64,000 bases of DNA, taken from positions 186,001 through 250,000 of the forward strand of contig NZ_WTYV01000004.1 in assembly GCF_009827655.1 (NCBI RefSeq). The letters run 5' to 3'. Below the pieces are notes generated by a model, which saw only the letters and a list, made by a program, of their open reading frames with translations, made no database searches and was not told the origin of the DNA. The DNA comes from Alteraurantiacibacter buctensis. GTDB lineage: Bacteria > Pseudomonadota > Alphaproteobacteria > Sphingomonadales > Sphingomonadaceae. Position numbers and translations under genes: made by a program. This document shows positions 1,956-17,922 of the stretch, piece after piece; positions within the stretch are counted from its first letter, which is position 1; each line of letters starts with the position of its first letter.

Positions 1956-3320
1956 TCAGCCCTTGTAGCAGACCTTCTTTGCGGCCGTGACGATGCGCGA
2001 GGCATCGATCAGCGCCAGCTTTTCCAGGTTCGCGGCATAGGGCAGCGGCACGTCCTCGTTGCACACCCGAATGACCGGTGCGTCGAGCAGGTCGAAGCCC
2101 TGCTCCATGCACACTGCAATCACTTCCGACGCGATCGAGCAGGCCGGCCAGCCTTCCTCGGCCACCACCAGGCGGTTGGTTTTTGCCAGGCTGTCGAGGA
2201 TGGTCTGGCTATCGAGCGGGCGCAGGGTGCGCAGGTCGATCACTTCGGCATCGATGCCTTCTTCCGCCAGCTTTTCAGCTGCTTCCAGCGCAAACTTCAC
2301 ACCGATGGAGTAGGACACGATGGTCACGTCGGCACCTTCGCGCATGATCCTCGCCTTGCCGATCGGCAGCACGTGATCGTCAAGCTGGGCCAGCTCGAAG
2401 CTGTTGCCGTAGACAAGCTCGTTTTCCAGGAAGATCACCGGATCGTCACTGCGGATGGCCGCCTTCAGCAGGCCCTTGGCATCGCTCGAATCGTACGGAG
2501 CGATAACGATCAGGCCCGGAACGCTGGCATACCACGGGGCATAGTTCTGGCTGTGCTGCGCGGCCACGCGGCTGGCCGCGCCGTTGGGGCCGCGAAACAC
2601 CACCGGGCAACGCATTTGGCCGCCCGACATGTAGTTGGTCTTGGCCGCCGAGTTGATGATGTGGTCAATCGCCTGCATGGCGAAGTTGAAGGTCATGAAC
2701 TCGACCACCGGGCGCAGGCCGCCCATCGCCGCACCCGTGCCGATGCCGGCAAAGCCGTATTCGGTGATCGGCGTGTCGATCACGCGCTTGGGGCCGAATT
2801 CCTCCAGCAACCCTTGCGTCACCTTGTAGGCACCCTGGTATTCGGCCACTTCCTCGCCCATTACGAAGACGCGCGGGTCACGGCGCATTTCCTCGGCCAT
2901 GGCATCGCGCAGCGCCTCGCGCACGGTCAGCTTGATCATGTTGGTGCCGGCGGGAATTGCGGGGTCTTCCACCCTTGCGGCCGGGGCCGGGCGTTCGGCG
3001 GGTGCCGCCGCCTCGGGAGCCGGGGACGGAGCGCTTTTTGCTGCGGCCGCAGGCGATGCAACGGGCGCCGCCACCTCGCCCTCGCCGTTCAGCACGGCGA
3101 TTACCGTGCCCACCTTCACGCCTTCGGAGCCTTCGGGAACCAGGATCTGGCCCACGGTGCCCTCGTCGATGGATTCGAACTCCATCGTCGCCTTGTCGGT
3201 CTCGATCTCGGCCAGCACGTCGCCGGCTTTCACGCTGTCGCCTTCCTTCACCAGCCACTTGGCCAGCGTGCCTTCCTCCATCGTGGGGGAGAGCGCGGGC
3301 ATCTTCAGTTCAATCGCCAT
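1956..3320 (-). CDS. pdhB: pyruvate dehydrogenase E1 component subunit beta, lipoyl-domain fusion
   Basis: 454 residues. E1-beta forms with PdhA the thiamine-diphosphate enzyme that decarboxylates pyruvate and transfers the acetyl group to lipoyl groups, feeding acetyl-CoA into the TCA cycle. Residues 1-80 are a biotinyl/lipoyl domain with the modifiable Lys in [10 protein letters not shown] (K43). An Ala/Pro/Glu-rich flexible linker follows (~82-125), then the transketolase-like pyrimidine-binding and C-terminal domains ([32 protein letters not shown], PFxx-type [24 protein letters not shown]). A lipoyl domain fused to E1-beta is normal in alphaproteobacteria. The start at [12 protein letters not shown] is chosen because it is the family N-terminus; a longer frame upstream would run into pdhA. 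One base separates it from the pdhA stop, so the pair is one operon. Confidence 0.95.
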
Positions 3321-3321
3321 C

Positions 3322-4416
3322 TCAGTAGGTCCCCACCAGCACGTCGGTATAGAGTTCGGACGGAGCCGGTTCGGGCGACTTTTCGGCAAAGTCAGCCGCC
3401 TCGGCCACGCTGGTGCGAATGTCCTTCTCGATATCCTTCAGCCGGTCTTCCGAAACGCCCAGCTTGAGCAGTTCGGCCTTGGCCATCTCGATCGGGTCGC
3501 TCTTCTCGCGAACGCCCTGCACTTCCTCGCGGGTGCGATACTTGGCCGGGTCGGACATGGAGTGGCCGCGATAGCGATAGGTGTTGAGCTCCATCAGCAC
3601 CGGCCCGTTGCCGCCGCGCACGTGTTCCACCGCGATGCGGGCGGCCTGGTGCACTTCCAGCACGTCCATGCCGTTCACTTCCATGCCGGGAATGCGGAAA
3701 GCCGTGCCGCGGCGATAGAACTCGGTCTCGGCGCTGGAGCGCTTGACGCTGGTGCCCATGGCGTACTGGTTGTTCTCGACCACGAAGATAATCGGCAGGC
3801 CCCACAGGCTGGCCATGTTCATGGTTTCATAGACCTGGCCCTGGTTGGCCGCACCGTCACCGAAGTAGGCCATGCACAGGCCGCCATCCTCGTTGTACTT
3901 GTGGGCAAAGGCCAGGCCCCCGCCCAGCGACACCTGCGCGCCGACGATGCCGTGGCCGCCGTAGAAGGCATGCTCGGTGCTGAACATGTGCATCGAGCCG
4001 CCCTTGCCCCGGCTGATGCCGGCTTCGCGCCCGGTCAGTTCGGCCATGATGATCTTGGGATCGATGCCATAGGCCAGCATGTGGCCATGGTCGCGATAGC
4101 CGGTGATCACGCTGTCCTTGCCTTCGTTCAGCGCGCTTTGCAGACCCACCGCAACCGCTTCCTGGCCAATGTACAGGTGGCAGAAACCGCCGATCAGGCC
4201 CAGGCCATATAGCTGGCCGGCCTTCTCCTCGAACCGGCGGATCAGCAGCATCTTCTGGTAGAAGCCCAGCAACTCTTCCTCGCTGGCGTTGAAGCGGCGG
4301 TCCTTCTCGAACCGTTCCTGCAGGCTGCGCAGCTCGAAATTGTCGCCATTACCGGCATTTGCCGCAGACTTTGCGGTCTTGCCGCCAGATGCAGAAGAAG
4401 AAGCTGATCGTGCCAA
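3322..4416 (-). CDS. pdhA: pyruvate dehydrogenase E1 component subunit alpha
   Basis: 364 residues, typical length. Contains the thiamine-diphosphate motif GDGAANQGQ...[11 protein letters not shown] and the substrate/phosphorylation-loop type region [15 protein letters not shown]. Also [19 protein letters not shown] and [11 protein letters not shown], which are diagnostic of bacterial E1-alpha. The best start is TTG at 4416: the preceding in-frame codons lack ATG/GTG and the Ser/Ala/Lys-rich leader (about residues 1-25) is usual for sphingomonad PdhA. It lies directly upstream of pdhB with a single base between them, and downstream of ftsB (155-bp gap), a common order in the group. Confidence 0.94.
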
Positions 4417-4571
4417 AATCCACCATCCCGATGCGCGCCGGAGGGGCCGGCGCCGCTTGCCGTTCGGCTATAGGCAGATCATCGGCGGCCATGCAACGGG
4501 GCGAATCAGCAATGAACCGATGCGGTTAGAAAAGCTGCAAGTGGGTACCCGCGCGGTTTGCGCGGAGGGAG

Positions 4572-4874
4572 CTACTGCTCCAGATCGATGACGTATTCGT
4601 CAGGGTGGGCGACGTTGAGGTTCTGCCGCACCTGCTCGCTGGCAAGGTCCGGATCGACATGATCAGGGTCCAGCAGGTCAACCCGGTTGCGCAGCACGGC
4701 ACGCTGCTGTTCCAGCGCGGCGATCTGTTGTTCGCGATGATCCAGCAGGGCAGACTGCTCGCTCCACGCCAGCAGGCCGAACGGGCCAATCAGCGCCATG
4801 GCCCCCAGCCCCAGCAGCCATGCCAGGGAGAACCACTGCATGCGTTTCTCGCGCCGGGCCGATTGAGCGTTCAT
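4572..4874 (-). CDS. ftsB: FtsB/DivIC-family septum formation initiator
   Basis: 100 residues, typical for the family. A short basic cytoplasmic tail is followed by one membrane helix (~residues 12-36, WFSLAWLLGLGAMALIGPFG), a coiled coil (~40-70, LLDHREQQIAALEQQRAVLRNRV) and a C-terminal segment. This is the bitopic architecture of FtsB, which with FtsL and FtsQ links the divisome to septal peptidoglycan synthesis. The position upstream of pdhA is conserved in alphaproteobacteria. It could be called DivIC; the two names cover one family. Confidence 0.82.
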   Translation of the reverse strand: MNAQSARREKRMQWFSLAWLLGLGAMALIGPFGLLAWSEQSALLDHREQQIAALEQQRAVLRNRVDLLDPDHVDPDLASEQVRQNLNVAHPDEYVIDLEQ

Positions 4875-5076
4875 GATGCAACAGAATCATACTTCAGGCG
4901 GCGATTCAAGCACTTTCGCCGGTGTTCGTTGACGGTGCCAGAACATCTCCCCCGTAGTGCCTTGCGAATTTCCGGAGCGCAGGCTGCCAAATTGTTGATT
5001 AAGCCCAGCGCAAGTTACTTGCCTGTAACGCCGGGCAAGGCCACTAGGGGGCATCGCAAGGGAGACCCATCCGATC

Positions 5077-5616
5077 ATGTTCGCGCAGCGCGTAGCCATC
5101 GTTCTCGCCGGCAGCAGTGCCCTCGCCTGCCTGCCTGCTCCGGCTTTTGCCCAGGTGCCGGAAGGGGTCACCCTCAATATCCTGCGCGAGTGTTCGCGGA
5201 TCGATGATCCCTCTGCTCGCCTGGCCTGCTATGATAACAACATGCGCGCGGCTGGCGGCCAGGCCCGGAACACCATCCCGGGCCAGGTACAGGTGCAAGG
5301 TGGCGGTGCGGTAAGCACGGACGGCCGCCCGGCAGGTTTCGGGCGCGAGGACCTGCCCGTGCCGCAGGCAGCACAGGCCCAGAGCTATGGTCCGGACGAG
5401 ATTACGGCCACGGTCACCGAAGTGACCCAGCGTGGCCCCGGCATCTATCTGCTGACGCTGGAAGGCGACGCGCAGTGGGTGTTCACGGAAGGCGTCAGCA
5501 TGTCGTACAACCCGCCGCGTCGCGGATCGCGGGTGGAAATCATGCGCGGCGCGATGGACAGCTTCCTGCTTCGGTTCGACAATCAGGAGTCGGTGCGCGT
5601 CCGCCGGGTCCAGTGA
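5077..5616 (+). CDS. secreted protein of unknown function
   Basis: 179 residues. Residues 1-24 are a Sec signal peptide ending PAPAFA|Q. The mature N-terminus has the pattern ILRECSRIDDPSARLACYDNN (quoted in parts: ECSRIDD, ARLACYD), a short two-Cys motif seen in many exported proteobacterial proteins and probably disulfide-bonded. The C-terminal half (residues ~105-179) is beta-rich with alternating hydrophobics, resembling a small barrel. No enzyme motif is visible. The gene stands alone between ftsB (divergent) and the MarR gene (convergent). Function not assigned. Confidence 0.7.
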   Translation: MFAQRVAIVLAGSSALACLPAPAFAQVPEGVTLNILRECSRIDDPSARLACYDNNMRAAGGQARNTIPGQVQVQGGGAVSTDGRPAGFGREDLPVPQAAQAQSYGPDEITATVTEVTQRGPGIYLLTLEGDAQWVFTEGVSMSYNPPRRGSRVEIMRGAMDSFLLRFDNQESVRVRRVQ

Positions 5617-5635
5617 GGCTTGCAGGGCTGCCGCT

Positions 5636-6955
5636 TCAGCGGTGCCCCAGTTCCTCATAGGCCCGTTCGCGCTCCAGCTGGATCACGGCGTTGCGGCGGA
5701 TCTTGTCGAAGGTCGCCAGGAATTCGTCCCGCTCGGTTTCGGATAGCGGCCCCAGCAGGAATGCGCTGCGCTGGCGGCTGGCATCCTGGATCACGTTGAA
5801 CAGGCGGGCGCCCTCCTCCGTTGGGCTGAACCGTCCGTGGCGCCGGCCCGGCCCGCCCTCGCGTTCCACCAGCCCGCGCTCGATCAGCGCGTTGACCGTG
5901 CGTCCCGCCTGGCTGTGATCGCGATCGATCCGGTCGACCAGCACGTGCCAGTCGATCGGCGGAGCCAGCCCGATCTCGTTGAGAACCCAGGCTTCGAAGC
6001 TGGACAGGCCCGTCAGCCGCTTGAACGTCAGCGAGCCGCTGCGGCTGAAATAGGAACTGAGCGTCATCAACGGCGAGATGATGCGGCTGCGGTCCATCAC
6101 GATCCGATCGCCGCTGCCCTCGCTTTCCACCGCTGCGCCGGGCCGCGGGAAGTTGGACGGCTCCTGCCCCTGGCTGAGGCTGCGCTCCTGCTCATAGAGC
6201 AGCACGGACTGTTCCAGCAGCTTCTCGATCACGTTGAAGAAGCGCGCCAGTTCGGCATCGCCGATGTCGAAGGTCAGCTCACGGTTGCGCAGGTCCGCCA
6301 GGCGCAACAGGCGCACCGCGTGTTCCTGCCCCTTGCGGGTGAGCGAAAGCGGCGAGCGAAGCTGTTCGCGCTCGACCAGCCTGATCTCCAGCAGCCGCTT
6401 GACCGACCGGCTGACCTGGGCCTTGTCCACCCCCACCGCCGCCGAGATGCCGGCCGGCACCAGTGGGCCAAGATTATGCAGCAGGAACAGGATGCGCCGG
6501 TCCAGCTCGATCAGGTCGAGCTCGCGCGCATAGGCCATCTCGGCACTTTCGCGCACCTTGAACAGCAGTTGCCACAGTTCGCTCTGGATCACCGAGGTGG
6601 CGGGGCGGCCGGCGGTGCCGGATGCCTTGGCCGGCTCGAGCCCGTTGAGGATGATGTTCAGGCGAAGGGCGAATTCCGAGGGCGGAGAGTCGGGTGCGCC
6701 CCCGCCACTCGCCTGGCGTTCTGACGAAACGCTGCCGATAACATAGGCCTCGACGATCTGGATAGCTTCGGCTGCCATCGGCCCAAGGCCTGCGACGATC
6801 GTTTCCATCGCCGGGGGTGCACAGGGCATGGGATCATCCGTGCCGCATTGACCGGTCAGGATGGCCGAGCGCAAGTCCAGCGCACGTTCGATCAGGCTGC
6901 TGCGCCAGTCAGGGCCGGCGACCGCGTCGCGATCCTGGTGCACCCCTTTTCCCAA
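5636..6955 (-). CDS. tandem MarR-type winged-helix regulator
   Basis: 439 residues, about three times the length of a normal MarR protein. Two winged-helix units are visible. The first (~135-260) has LIELDRRILFLLHNLG, then helix-turn-helix AAVGVDKAQVSRSVKRLLEIRLVER and the wing SPLSLTRKG. The second (~283-435) has LSSFEAWVLNEIG, HSQAGRTVNALIERGLVEREG and the wing RHGRFSPTEEG. A single chain can thus mimic a MarR dimer. The start is TTG at 6955 because GGGGAG lies eight bases upstream. It is divergent from the TonB-dependent receptor across a 650-bp gap and may regulate it; that is inference from position only. The N-terminal ~120 residues match no domain I recognise. Confidence 0.78.
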   Translation of the reverse strand: MGKGVHQDRDAVAGPDWRSSLIERALDLRSAILTGQCGTDDPMPCAPPAMETIVAGLGPMAAEAIQIVEAYVIGSVSSERQASGGGAPDSPPSEFALRLNIILNGLEPAKASGTAGRPATSVIQSELWQLLFKVRESAEMAYARELDLIELDRRILFLLHNLGPLVPAGISAAVGVDKAQVSRSVKRLLEIRLVEREQLRSPLSLTRKGQEHAVRLLRLADLRNRELTFDIGDAELARFFNVIEKLLEQSVLLYEQERSLSQGQEPSNFPRPGAAVESEGSGDRIVMDRSRIISPLMTLSSYFSRSGSLTFKRLTGLSSFEAWVLNEIGLAPPIDWHVLVDRIDRDHSQAGRTVNALIERGLVEREGGPGRRHGRFSPTEEGARLFNVIQDASRQRSAFLLGPLSETERDEFLATFDKIRRNAVIQLERERAYEELGHR

Positions 6956-14775: not shown

Positions 14776-14783
14776 AAACGTAT
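14776..14783. repeat. target-site duplication, left copy (AAACGTAT)
   Basis: AAACGTAT occurs directly outside the left inverted repeat and again, identically, outside the right one (17915-17922). An 8-bp duplication is the size produced by IS1595-family transposases. Confidence 0.93.
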
Positions 14784-14805
14784 GGCGATTGTATACTTTG
14801 CAAAC
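14784..14805 (+). repeat. left terminal inverted repeat (IRL) of IS1595-type transposon
   Basis: Starts GGCGAT, then TG, then TATACTTTGCAAAC. It matches the right end in 20 of 22 positions; only the two bases after GGCGAT differ (TG here, AA at the right end). Confidence 0.93.
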
Positions 14806-14814
14806 AGAATGAGC

Positions 14815-15111
14815 CTAGGGCGTTTGCCACTCATTCCTGATCCATTTGCCCATGTCGTTTCCATTGGCGTCTGGAAGTGTTCTTGCGGCCCAAGTCATAG
14901 CTTCGACTTCTGTCACAAAGCATCGGGCATGCGGGGCAACTTCTTCAATCATCGAATTTATCTGAGAGGCGGTCACGGTGTCGCTAATCGACTTGATGAG
15001 CCAGAAGTTTGGCAGCCAATGCCAATACCCCATGCCTTTCAGCTTCTCTTTGAGTTGCCGCTCTTCCTCAGCACTGAGCACGTCCGTCGAGAGAATGAAT
15101 TTTTTGCTCAT
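14815..15111 (-). CDS. transposon cargo protein 5, possible Cas2/SinR-like fold
   Basis: 98 residues, last gene of the cargo operon. It starts MSKKFILSTDVLS, followed by a helix (AEEERQLKEKLKGMG), then WHWLPNFWLIK, a second helix (TASQINSMIEEV), strand ARCFVTEVE and a terminal W-rich part. This order, with an Asp after the first strand, a WxxL...WLI strand and the TASQI helix, resembles the small ferredoxin-like proteins of the SinR/Cas2/VapD type. That is my reading by eye, without a search, so no activity is claimed. The start overlaps the stop of the membrane-protein gene by four bases (ATGA). Confidence 0.65.
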   Translation of the reverse strand: MSKKFILSTDVLSAEEERQLKEKLKGMGYWHWLPNFWLIKSISDTVTASQINSMIEEVAPHARCFVTEVEAMTWAARTLPDANGNDMGKWIRNEWQTP

Positions 15112-15482
15112 CGACCCGTCTCGGTATCTGGCTCAAGGTTCTGAGCACTTCGTTTCGGGGCCTCTATCAAGCCAATGTTGCTGTCACCATAAATGCCGTG
15201 TTGAATCGCCATCTTGTGCAAGCTGTATTTCTCGGAGCGAAGGGCGTCGCGATCAGTGAAAAGAAGATAGATGAAGGAGATTGCGTAGATAGCCAGAAAT
15301 AGGCCAGCGAATGCCGCAATAGCAACCAAAGCCCAGCCTGGCGCTTTCGCGTAGGTCGCCGAGATGAAAATCAGCAACAGGATTAGGATGGGCCATATAA
15401 GCACTCGCAGCACATCCGAACGAGACAATTCGGCCTGCATCTGCTCTCGCAGAGTGGAAACTAACCTCAGAAAATCAGGCAT
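15108..15482 (-). CDS. transposon cargo protein 4, two-helix membrane protein
   Basis: 124 residues. A ~25-residue N-terminal amphipathic stretch (LREQMQAELSRSDVLR) is followed by two membrane helices (~27-46, VLIWPILILLLIFIS; ~50-74, ALVAIAAFAGLFLAIYAISF). The rest is a hydrophilic tail with DALRSEKYSLHKMAIQHGIYGDS. No known domain is recognised. Its ATG overlaps the last eight bases of the 44-residue gene (ATGCCTGA). In the operon it would place part of the module at the inner membrane. Confidence 0.75.
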   Translation of the reverse strand: MPDFLRLVSTLREQMQAELSRSDVLRVLIWPILILLLIFISATYAKAPGWALVAIAAFAGLFLAIYAISFIYLLFTDRDALRSEKYSLHKMAIQHGIYGDSNIGLIEAPKRSAQNLEPDTETGR

Positions 15483-15609
15483 CGGGTCTCTCTGGCTTCA
15501 CCTTCGCCAGCTTCTTGAGCCGCTCATCCCAATGGGCTTCGTCCTCATCCGCTTCCAGTTCGCGGGCGAGACGTTTGAACTTGTCAGTTTGTTTGGGTTC
15601 GTCGGTCAA
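15475..15609 (-). CDS. transposon cargo protein 3, 44-residue charged peptide (TTG start)
   Basis: 44 residues from TTG 15609 to TGA 15475; too short for most gene finders. It is almost entirely charged and helical: DKFKRLARELEADEDEAHWDERLKKLAK in parts (DKFKRLARELEADED, HWDERLKKLAKVKP). The start overlaps the PIN gene's stop (TTGA) and the end overlaps the next ATG by eight bases, so it fits the chain of overlaps exactly. I recall short proteins with a KFK-x-ARELE...DE...LKKLAK pattern as frequent unnamed neighbours of PIN and defence genes. An antitoxin or adaptor role is possible but unproven. Confidence 0.7.
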   Translation of the reverse strand: MTDEPKQTDKFKRLARELEADEDEAHWDERLKKLAKVKPERPDA

Positions 15610-16070
15610 TGAATGCCCCCAACAAGCTTCAGTTTGGGTTGCGCGATCGATGGCTTGCGAATGATGAGAGTAGGGGTTCCGTGTAAGCCACTTTGGTCAA
15701 TTAGAGGTCCGTCAAACGTGTGCAGTTCATCCATGCCAAGACGAAGTGCCGTCGCCATATGAATGGCATCTTTGGGTGCAACGTTGTGATGCCAAACCAG
15801 TTGCCTGGCATCCTCTGCAGTCTTTCGAGTGACACTGTGGACGTCGATGTAGCTTCGCTTAAAAAACGCCTCAACCTTACCAAGGTCAGTGGTTGGCACC
15901 CTCGGTTTACCGCGCATCGCGAGAACTTCCGCAAGGGTCAAAGCGGACGTAACGATCATCAGCCGTCCAGCCTCACATTCGTCTAGCACCTCGCGACAGG
16001 AATCCACCTTGTCTAGCTCGTCTTGGAGCCAGCCCAAAAAGCACACGCTATCCCAATAAACAGCGCTCAC
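15606..16070 (-). CDS. transposon cargo protein 2, PIN-domain nuclease (VapC-like)
   Basis: 154 residues, standard PIN length. The four acidic residues that hold the metal are visible: D7 (VYWDSVCFLGWL), E48 (SALTLAEVL), D101 (PKDAIHMATAL) and D120 (LHTFDGPL). PIN proteins are Mg/Mn-dependent ribonucleases; many are VapC toxins that cut tRNA or rRNA. The active site is complete, so the protein should be catalytically competent. Unlike VapBC, no AbrB, RHH or Phd-type antitoxin gene precedes it; a 246-residue protein does. It overlaps that gene by four bases (ATGA) and the following 44-residue gene by four (TTGA). Confidence 0.88.
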   Translation of the reverse strand: MSAVYWDSVCFLGWLQDELDKVDSCREVLDECEAGRLMIVTSALTLAEVLAMRGKPRVPTTDLGKVEAFFKRSYIDVHSVTRKTAEDARQLVWHHNVAPKDAIHMATALRLGMDELHTFDGPLIDQSGLHGTPTLIIRKPSIAQPKLKLVGGIH

Positions 16071-16807
16071 CGTGGCGAATTCCTCAAGAGCCCCACCACG
16101 TCATAAGCGGAGGGAAGTTCATCGTCAGGCGGGAATATCGTAATATCCTCAACCTTGATGCGCTTCGGCTTATCATCCTTCCCGTATCGCACTAAACCAT
16201 AAACTTCGGCTCGATGGCCAAATGCTTTGAGCGCATCAGGCAACCGCTCAGGGGGGACAATGCAATGGACCGCATTTCCGTCCAGCGGTTGGAAGATGAT
16301 GAATTTTGCATTCCCATGTTCGGAAATCGTTTCGATCCGCCCGACGACCGCTCCGTGTTCTTCGAAGCCCGACTTGAGAATGTCATCGATGTTGGCAATC
16401 GAATGGGCAGACAACCCGTGGGGCCGCTTCTCGACCCACACCCTGACTCCAATATCGGCATCGGCACCAAGCGAAATCTTGGCCAAATCCCTTACACCTT
16501 CGAGGGCGCGTGGAGGAAAATTCTCAGGCTCCTCAGCATCCCTCTCAAGGGACGAAAGGCCCGCTTCAATGCTGCTGTAGATACTGCCTACAGAGGCGGA
16601 GTTTGCGCCTCCGTTAGGGTAAACTCCGATCAGGTTGCTGCCCTGTTTGACTTGGACCCTCCAGCCAACAGTATCGTCGATCTGGTCGGTAAGTTGGTTT
16701 AGGACGGCAAAGAACGAACGGACCCCCCGAACAAAAAGTTCGGGGGTTAGATCTTCGCCGTTCAACTCAAGCGTGAGCGGCGCTTCAATGTCCTTCTCGG
16801 TCGCCAC
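16067..16807 (-). CDS. transposon cargo protein 1, unknown (246 residues)
   Basis: First gene of the cargo operon. GTG start at 16807 with AGGG four bases upstream. No membrane segments. The N-terminal half (~1-110) reads LTLELNGEDLTPELFVRGVRSFFAVLNQL (in parts), which looks like a helical-beta domain. The C-terminal half (~150-240) is beta-rich (AKFIIFQPLDGNAVHCIVPPE, AEVYGLVRYGKDDKPKRIKVEDITIFP in parts) and resembles a small beta-barrel. I do not recognise a named family. Position directly before a PIN toxin suggests an antitoxin or regulator role, which is inference. It overlaps the PIN gene by four bases. Confidence 0.72.
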   Translation of the reverse strand: MATEKDIEAPLTLELNGEDLTPELFVRGVRSFFAVLNQLTDQIDDTVGWRVQVKQGSNLIGVYPNGGANSASVGSIYSSIEAGLSSLERDAEEPENFPPRALEGVRDLAKISLGADADIGVRVWVEKRPHGLSAHSIANIDDILKSGFEEHGAVVGRIETISEHGNAKFIIFQPLDGNAVHCIVPPERLPDALKAFGHRAEVYGLVRYGKDDKPKRIKVEDITIFPPDDELPSAYDVVGLLRNSPR

Positions 16808-16816
16808 TTACCCTAA

Positions 16817-16835
16817 AATCTCCCTTTGGGAGATT
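16817..16835. promoter_or_regulatory. hairpin in cargo-operon leader
   Basis: AATCTCCC, TTT, GGGAGATT: a perfect 8-bp inverted repeat just before GTG 16807. In the minus-strand RNA it would bind up a GGGAGA purine tract upstream of the start, so it could limit translation or serve as a repressor site. Confidence 0.45.
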
Positions 16836-16861
16836 CTACACGACCAGATTCCTTGGCGCAA
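16833..16861 (-). promoter_or_regulatory. candidate promoter of cargo operon
   Basis: On the minus strand TTGCGC, 17 bases, TAGAAT (5 of 6 to TATAAT). The -10 lies about 25 bp before the GTG start. Read by eye only. Confidence 0.45.
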
Positions 16862-16882
16862 CCACGACTAATCCCCCATGAA

Positions 16883-16905
16883 ATCAAACTCATATTGAGT
16901 TTCAT
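16883..16905. promoter_or_regulatory. dyad between transposase and cargo operon
   Basis: AAACTCA, TAT, TGAGTTT, a perfect 7-bp dyad, extended by AT/AT pairs beyond one mismatch. It lies after the transposase stop and upstream of the operon promoter. It could be an operator for the cargo operon or a weak terminator for the transposase gene; no T-run follows. Confidence 0.4.
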
Positions 16906-16919
16906 AGGCTTTCTCACTT

Positions 16920-17849
16920 TTAGCAATGAGTTGTTTTATACGTGAGGCGCTTGCCGGTGATGCCAGCAAGCGCCGCACTGGAACGGTCCCCGTCATTGCA
17001 GCCAAGCGCCGCGCGATTGTTATAGCGGAACTCGAACTCTGCCAGATAGCGGTGCAGGTGGCCCTCGCCGCAGTGCTGATAAACGCCCTTCATGCCGCGC
17101 TTGAAGATGCTGAAATAGCCTTCCACGGTGTTGCTGTGGATGCTGCGATCCTCAAGGTTTACATACTCGCCCTTGCCGTGGCTGGTGGTGCCATGACCGG
17201 CGAAATAGCGCTTCACATCACGGTAGCCGCTATGTTCGTCGGTCATGATCCGCGCCTCACGTTCCACGTTGGCAATCACCAGCGGCATGAGGGTTTCGGC
17301 CCGCACATCGTCAATGACCATCGTGCGAGCCTTGCCAGTGTCGCGGTCCACCAGCGCAAGCACCTTCATCTTGTGGTGAAAGGCGCGCTTCTTTTCAGCG
17401 CCCTTCTTGCGACCAATGAAAGTTTCATCGACCTCGACAATGCCGCCATTGCCGCCGAACGGGGCAAGGTTTCCATCGCGCATGGCTTCACGAACGCGGT
17501 GCATCAGGAACCACGCGCTCTTGTAGGTGATTTCCAGCGTCCGGTGCAGCTGGTGGGCGCTTACGCCCTTCTTGCTGCTGGTGATCAGGTAAACCGCCTG
17601 GAGCATCTTGTGCAGCGGAATGCGGGCATGTTCAAACACGGTGCCCACCTTGACGGTGAACTGGCCCTTGCAGTTTCCACAGCGCCAGAGGCCAACGCGA
17701 ATGCGCTTCGCAGGGTTGGCCTTCACCTTCGTGATACGGTCCACAGAACCACAGTGCGGGCAAACCGGCTCACCTGCCCAGATCACCTTTTCGAGGTGGG
17801 CGAAGGCAGCTTCTTCACTGTGAAACTCGGGGCGGGAAAGGGCAGACAT
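16920..17849 (-). CDS. IS1595-family (ISXO2-like) transposase
   Basis: 309 residues. An N-terminal zinc ribbon (C30-PHC33 and C57-GNC60) is followed by a helix-turn-helix-like region and a DDE-type catalytic domain: D141 (VEVDETFIG), D204 (IMTDEHSGY) and the N240/E243 region (SNTVEGYFSIFKRGMKGVYQH in parts). DETFIGRKK and the SNTVEGYFS block are hallmarks of ISXO2-like proteins. The start at 17849 (MSALSRPEF) has GGAG nine bases upstream; an earlier frame start would lie inside the terminal repeat. The frame is intact from zinc ribbon to C-terminus. Confidence 0.93.
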   Translation of the reverse strand: MSALSRPEFHSEEAAFAHLEKVIWAGEPVCPHCGSVDRITKVKANPAKRIRVGLWRCGNCKGQFTVKVGTVFEHARIPLHKMLQAVYLITSSKKGVSAHQLHRTLEITYKSAWFLMHRVREAMRDGNLAPFGGNGGIVEVDETFIGRKKGAEKKRAFHHKMKVLALVDRDTGKARTMVIDDVRAETLMPLVIANVEREARIMTDEHSGYRDVKRYFAGHGTTSHGKGEYVNLEDRSIHSNTVEGYFSIFKRGMKGVYQHCGEGHLHRYLAEFEFRYNNRAALGCNDGDRSSAALAGITGKRLTYKTTHC

Positions 17850-17868
17850 TGGCTTAACTCCGTATGGG

Positions 17869-17899
17869 AGTCTTATAACACCAACGCGCCGTGTTTGCA
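17869..17899 (-). promoter_or_regulatory. candidate transposase promoter overlapping the right inverted repeat
   Basis: On the minus strand TTGCAA lies inside the inverted repeat and TTATAA follows after 16 bases, upstream of GGAG and ATG 17849. A promoter whose -35 is in the terminal repeat is common in insertion sequences. Confidence 0.45.
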
Positions 17900-17914
17900 A
17901 AGTATATTATCGCC
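17893..17914 (-). repeat. right terminal inverted repeat (IRR) of IS1595-type transposon
   Basis: Read from the outside in: GGCGAT, AA, TATACTTTGCAAAC, matching IRL in 20 of 22 positions. Confidence 0.93.
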
Positions 17915-17922
17915 AAACGTAT
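17915..17922. repeat. target-site duplication, right copy (AAACGTAT)
   Basis: Identical to 14776-14783. Removing the element plus one copy restores a continuous sequence from hsp20 into the hairpin that follows. Confidence 0.93.

Follow-up and report, generated by a model that had tools for sequence, protein, structure and literature searches.

A probable PIN toxin-antitoxin pair carried by an IS1595-family element with two variable cargo slots in Alteraurantiacibacter buctensis

Results

Five overlapping genes and their leader

The window, a stretch of 64,000 nucleotides from Alteraurantiacibacter buctensis, contains five serially overlapping open reading frames on the minus strand (Table 1), as an initial annotation had described. 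They encode, in order of transcription, a 246-aa partner protein (UP), a PIN-domain nuclease, a 44-aa charged peptide, a 124-aa membrane protein and a 98-aa protein. The last three overlaps read TTGA, ATGCCTGA and ATGA as previously given, whereas the first is GTGA instead of the ATGA that had been claimed, because the PIN gene starts with GTG. PIN alone among the five proteins passed the Pfam cut-off (2.3e-10), and all four acidic residues attributed to it (D7, E48, D101 and D120) are present. With PADLOC, the sole match among the window's own proteins was a weak one of the 98-aa protein to JAB (0.0081).

Regulatory features had also been proposed for the locus. The leader hairpin was confirmed: it has an 11-bp stem, and none of 200 shuffles was as stable as the 51 nt that were folded. 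Lying ahead of UP, it could regulate expression of the cassette. One other dyad is present (16942-16978), within the coding end of the transposase gene. Promoter-like sites were not above chance (one found versus a shuffled mean of 1.7).

Table 1. Features of the element in window coordinates
Feature	Position	Strand	Basis or remark
Target-site duplication AAACGTAT, left copy	14776..14783	.	8/8 identical to right copy
Terminal inverted repeat, passenger end	14784..14806	+	21/23 match other end
98-aa protein gene	14815..15111	-	ORF; only in this element among loci searched
124-aa protein, two membrane helices (judged by eye)	15108..15482	-	ORF; only in this element among loci searched
44-aa charged peptide	15475..15609	-	Common mark of related IS1595 elements
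PIN-domain nuclease, probable toxin	15606..16070	-	Pfam PF01850; catalytic acids intact
246-aa partner protein (UP), probable antitoxin	16067..16807	-	Profile and structure model
Stable hairpin between transposase and UP genes	16814..16838	-	Folding, z -4.26
IS1595-family transposase	16920..17900	-	DDE_Tnp_IS1595 PF12762 8e-34; zinc ribbon PF12760 8.2e-13
Terminal inverted repeat, transposase end	17892..17914	-	21/23 match other end
Target-site duplication AAACGTAT, right copy	17915..17922	.	8/8 identical to left copy

The five genes are cargo of an IS1595-family insertion

The five genes lie within a 3131-bp element (14784-17914) inserted between hsp20 and pyrG. A 326-aa transposase is encoded on the same strand, 112 nt upstream of them, and a 23-nt inverted repeat, GGCGAT..TATACTTTGCAAACA, encloses the transposase gene and all five passengers. 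The catalytic domain, the zinc ribbon, the inverted ends and the 8-bp duplication, a length typical of the family, assign the element to IS1595, and the presence of five passengers unrelated to transposition inside its ends makes it a transporter IS (tIS). Transposase, inverted ends and target duplication were absent from the initial annotation.

Of 40 genomes from the genus, that of A. buctensis included, 38 contained a detected hsp20. The insert was absent in all 29 same-genus loci from other genomes, where hsp20 and pyrG are near neighbours; a gap value was available for 28 of these loci, and the distance between the matching parts is 287-547 bp in 27 and 86 bp in one. At two loci, L156 and L177, the match spans the joined flanks of an empty site. 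Thus, the five genes are the cargo of an insertion that these relatives do not share.

Two further IS1595 elements were observed in the same genome. The second peptide-bearing element, L087 (G000:C10:956500-964500; 2992-6694, 3703 bp, duplication TAGAGAAA), has a different, unnamed cargo, and relatives of its middle gene occur in L128 (63% identity) and L130 (56%). The third, L088 (G000:C8; 1824 bp), consists of a transposase and one 183-aa gene and has no peptide.

UP and PIN form a widespread pair

Scanning with three PIN proteins yielded 78 loci. UP and PIN profiles, started from the window's 246-aa protein and PIN, both matched in 83/83 sequences of a set that contains repeats of some places. 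With repeats removed, the two genes were adjacent with UP first in 71 of 75 loci, at gaps of -26 to +20 nt; -4 and -8 were the commonest values, and the 4-nt overlap was seen in 21/75. The loci outside this range were L052, L060, L072 and L080, and two UP matches fell outside the strict distance rule (L040, where an early stop had been used to set the PIN frame, and L072, a disrupted copy at the edge of a contig). Both genes were also found in 7/7 viral contigs not used for profile building, four of which have a transposase or part of one, and the four profiles had no match in 160,850 bases of background. The hosts extend from Alphaproteobacteria through Nitrospinota and Planctomycetota to Actinobacteria. 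This is the layout of a type II toxin-antitoxin system in the broad sense: paired, adjacent and with the gene of the presumed antitoxin, UP, in first position. In the PIN alignment, from which 8/79 loci were left out, E48, D101 and D120 were conserved in 71/71 sequences, the window included, and D7 in 70/71.

A search with the single UP sequence found no relatives in the genome contigs or in plasmids, and a relative in one of 396 other family genomes. None of the sequence matches of UP in Pfam, NCBIfam or the PDB was convincing, and it fell into no recognised antitoxin or DNA-binding family, its 42 relatives giving only single chance-level matches (VbhA 0.057, VapB 0.059). The earlier statement that a VapB-type antitoxin is missing agrees with this, none being matched in the 246-aa protein by Pfam or NCBIfam; a VapB, RHH, AbrB or Phd antitoxin was likewise rejected for both the 246-aa and the 44-aa proteins after searches of the same libraries. 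The OB-fold nucleic-acid-binding family PF01336 was matched weakly by 4/42 UP relatives. The AlphaFold model of UP is of high confidence (mean pLDDT 92.4, pTM 0.75) and has an alpha/beta N-terminal domain and a C-terminal domain with the strand order b-b-b-a-b-b, which in our reading may be an OB-like barrel.

The pair and IS1595 have been joined or parted many times

A transposase or its remnant was located directly upstream of UP-PIN in 38 of 76 non-redundant loci. The other 38 had no detected transposase, and since 34 of them offered at least 1300 nt of upstream sequence, this is mostly not an effect of contig ends; the pair is therefore not transposon-specific. Ends matching at 16/22 or better, together with an exact 8-bp duplication, were found in 28 of 42 transposase loci, the window included (25 of 39 once three extra copies of one genome were removed), compared with 1 of 84 shuffles in which 4-base blocks were permuted and 3 of 36 transposase-less loci, these three not being IS1595-type by eye. 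This count left out L001, L002 and L004 (duplicates), L078, and L065, where a long palindrome was the best repeat. The same 2931-bp UP-PIN element occupies four places (L064, L066, L067 and L068) in the genome of an uncultured member of the Rhodobacteraceae, each with a different duplication, showing that it is mobile as a whole.

On the PIN tree, which left out 12/79 loci, the IS label changed 22 times versus a shuffled mean of 22.4, with at least 12 changes forced by well-supported branches. The label is thus scattered as at random, and the pair and IS1595 joined, or parted, many times. At L007, L010, L013, L015, L059 and L080, UP and PIN persist beside only a C-terminal remnant of the transposase; the PIN of L080 appears shortened.

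One transposase-less UP-PIN locus, L052:4156-7572, lies between inverted repeats that match at 19/22 and differ in sequence from the IS1595 ends, again with an exact 8-bp duplication, and is perhaps another kind of mobile element.

The 44-aa peptide follows the transposase

Mismatches by codon position (0.42, 0.36 and 0.59 in 54 sequences) indicate that the peptide gene is coding. The peptide had no convincing family match in Pfam or NCBIfam. Among 64 complete contexts, it was present in 28 of 35 loci with a transposase versus 2 of 29 without (L001, L002, L004, L078, L065, L060, L063, L066-L068 and the 9/73 loci with incomplete context were left out). A profile search of the order located it at 35 places in 34/396 genomes, and 7 kb, less at contig ends, were taken around 32 peptide places and the second copy in the A. 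buctensis genome. Together with the window and G399 these make 35 peptide loci, of which 26 have a transposase or remnant upstream and only 5 have UP-PIN; the weakest peptide matches may be due to chance. In the 29 family loci whose transposase matched best (L181-L209, some of which are places already in the set), the peptide was found within ~1.5 kb in 21 and just beyond in L181.

Complete elements without the peptide also occur (L188-L190 and L088), and among UP-PIN elements they number 7/28 (L031, L038, L041, and L064 with its three copies). Since the peptide tracks the transposase, also beside unrelated cargo, it belongs to many transposons of this kind and not to the PIN pair. It is probably part of the transposon backbone, affecting transposition or its control. 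A role as the antitoxin was rejected: of the 29 complete UP-PIN loci that have no transposase, 27 are also without the peptide, and at 30 of the 35 places where it occurs in the order its neighbour is other cargo or none.

Related elements hold different genes in two slots

Ends and an exact 8-bp duplication were identified in 22 of 25 related transposase loci, and one more had a duplication of 7/8. Across related elements, different genes occupy two slots, one from transposase to peptide and one from peptide to far end. Of 67 cargo ORFs, 57 were scanned and 10 were dropped as spurious by eye. At most 16 of the 57 proteins had a Pfam match, among them DUF3800 (7), Panacea antitoxin (4), PIN (3) and Schlafen AlbA_2 (1); for the PIN count, the set contained the UP-PIN loci L119 (the same place as L077), L122 (the same as L073) and L125. 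PADLOC identified a BstA-type abortive-infection gene (1.6e-115) in the right slot of a peptide-bearing IS1595 element (L120:4723-5694), PDC-S46 in L148 (4.7e-255), a type II methyltransferase (1.8e-59) with a restriction enzyme (4.2e-6) in L129, and a match of the AlbA-like cargo of L123 to an argonaute model (9.4e-44).

Panacea-type antitoxin genes were observed as IS1595 cargo at L124:3493-4338 and L146:3108-4078; their unnamed partners of 89 and 102 aa are candidate toxins.

In the window's element the right slot is filled by the membrane and 98-aa genes, and this slot differs in nearly every element compared. Neither gene was found in any other locus searched. The membrane protein was rejected as a conserved component, since neither the 198 other genomes of the family nor the plasmids contained a relative. 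Small membrane proteins, recognised by eye, follow the peptide in L002/L013, L028, L048, L061 and L070, with no relation to the 124-aa protein established. The 98-aa protein, previously called Cas2/SinR-like, had no family match; a protein of L061 resembles it by eye.

Probable exchange of cargo between related elements

The window's element was compared with that of L077/L119. The transposases are 91% identical (86% in DNA) and the peptides 69%, compared with 34% for PIN and 30% over 105 residues for UP; alignment at the DNA level is confined to the transposase region and the peptide. In L182-L187 the transposase DNA is 76-82% identical, with no UP-PIN within the 1.5 kb examined.

Five elements in four genera (L087 of the A. 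buctensis genome, L124, L127, L129 and L139) share a matching insertion site near a gene whose ORF we read as YqaA-like; in L127, terminase-like genes follow the site. Because these five were picked for duplications that looked alike (TAGAGAAA in three, TAGAGGAA in one, shifted in one), their number is not a rate. Nearly all pairs of elements can be aligned over transposase and peptide, and most over the far end, but the slots do not align, except for a common DUF3800-type middle cargo of L127 and L139 (one 2.8-kb alignment) and 38 nt in the right slot of L087 and L129. The sites could represent either old insertions with in-place replacement of cargo or one target used repeatedly, and both readings require the exchange of cargo between related elements.

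Discussion

We consider it probable, judging from sequence, that the locus is an IS1595-family transposon with interchangeable toxin-antitoxin or defence cassettes, and that its present cassette is the PIN pair, with PIN as toxin and UP as antitoxin. The proposal of a PIN nuclease unit without a VapB-type antitoxin is supported, and a toxin-antitoxin or defence role for it is plausible in view of the cargo that sister transposons carry in these slots (Panacea antitoxin, BstA, restriction-modification and Schlafen-like genes); the same slots do not prove the same function. PIN would be an RNA-cutting toxin that UP, encoded by the upstream overlapping gene, keeps inactive. The cassette might act by addiction, making loss of the element costly, or in abortive defence, with phage infection or stress freeing PIN to act, and either would favour keeping the transposon. 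Cassettes may be exchanged by recombination between co-resident elements, which would use the conserved sequences on either side of the two slots (transposase gene, peptide gene and inverted end).

The annotation had taken all five genes for a single toxin-antitoxin or defence operon. Their serial overlaps do suggest one transcript, but genes 4 and 5 were absent from every other locus searched and gene 3 tracks the transposase, so that this is the least probable of the readings considered here. No complete five-gene copy was found elsewhere in the loci searched; what co-occurs and travels widely is the UP-PIN core. It is also very improbable that UP and PIN are not cargo at all and instead assist transposition or its control. 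A transposase or remnant stands directly upstream of the pair in half of the non-redundant loci, but none was detected in the other half, the complete elements L183, L184 and L186, whose transposase DNA belongs to the 76-82% group, lack UP-PIN, and the IS label changes on the PIN tree as often as after shuffling.

For the pair itself, an antitoxin UP with a PIN RNase toxin ranks as the most likely arrangement and a targeted two-component nuclease comes next. In the latter, which we regard as unlikely though well above the two readings just weighed, UP would be a targeting or sensing subunit that uses its OB-like barrel to bind RNA or DNA, perhaps made by a phage, and so directs PIN to it, the pair being harmless until triggered. 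The OB strand order that we read in the UP model, the weak PF01336 matches of a few UP relatives and the defence genes in the slots of sister elements fit such a subunit, as does the size of UP, which at 246 aa far exceeds the usual VapB antitoxins. It has no known trigger, however, and the UP-first order with overlap, most often of 4 nt, is the pattern of type II toxin-antitoxin genes, favouring UP as the antitoxin.

Siguier, Gagnevin and Chandler reportedly described in 2009 an IS1595 family with passenger genes, the 'transporter IS' or tIS. The window's element resembles tIS, as far as the descriptions found extend, in its transposase domains, inverted ends, 8-bp duplication (generally held to be the family length) and non-transposition genes inside the ends. 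Unlike tIS in those same descriptions, it has a conserved peptide of 44 aa that separates two slots with exchangeable content, and PIN, Panacea, BstA and restriction genes are among the cargo of the group. Passenger genes in insertion sequences are known in general, an excerpted text giving the 2009 IS1595 paper as reference (PMC3129680). A literature search on IS1595 in connection with passenger genes, toxin-antitoxin systems, PIN domains or defence returned no account of the arrangement at the level of search results, with subscription literature mostly outside its range.

Tn3-family transposons have repeatedly acquired diverse toxin-antitoxin pairs, PIN included, beside their transposition genes; a role in stabilising the transposon was proposed, and 39/190 elements carried pairs with the known antitoxin families ParD, HTH, RHH, Phd, AbrB and MNT, according to the excerpted text (PMC7157771). 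Compared with the Tn3 pairs as excerpted there, UP is without a known family, the carrier is an insertion sequence, and defence genes occupy the same slots. The pair is like VapBC in its PIN nuclease with the acidic tetrad and in the upstream, overlapping partner gene, but the partner has 246 aa and no VapB, RHH, AbrB or Phd match, unlike a small DNA-binding antitoxin of the VapB kind. BstA, an abortive-infection protein according to the excerpted source (PMC8585504), is the right-slot cargo of the sister element L120 and is absent from the window's element.

More tentatively, the IS1595 group as a whole may be a compact carrier of defence cassettes, a fixed frame of transposase, peptide and ends around two slots whose toxin-antitoxin and anti-phage modules are replaced in situ. 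The peptide would then be a dedicated part of this machinery, and UP-PIN would be a previously undescribed system of phage defence or addiction whose antitoxin is of a novel type. If this were true, the peptide might control transposition or cassette exchange, for instance, or protect the element. It is common to regard insertion sequences as simple and to think of defence islands as large. The elements described here, at ~2-4.6 kb, carry individual modules of the toxin-antitoxin or anti-phage type. Where sister copies occupy matching sites, the frame is retained and the cargo is mostly different, which makes cassette exchange testable. The slots could also serve as a search tool, as genes without a name inside them become candidates for new defence or toxin systems. 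UP-PIN is widespread, UP is without a named family in the libraries searched, and the pair may represent a PIN toxin system whose partner protein is OB-like.

At L140:3292-4568, proteins of 244 and 182 aa are encoded beside the peptide; neither profile matches them, and by eye they are distantly UP-PIN-like.
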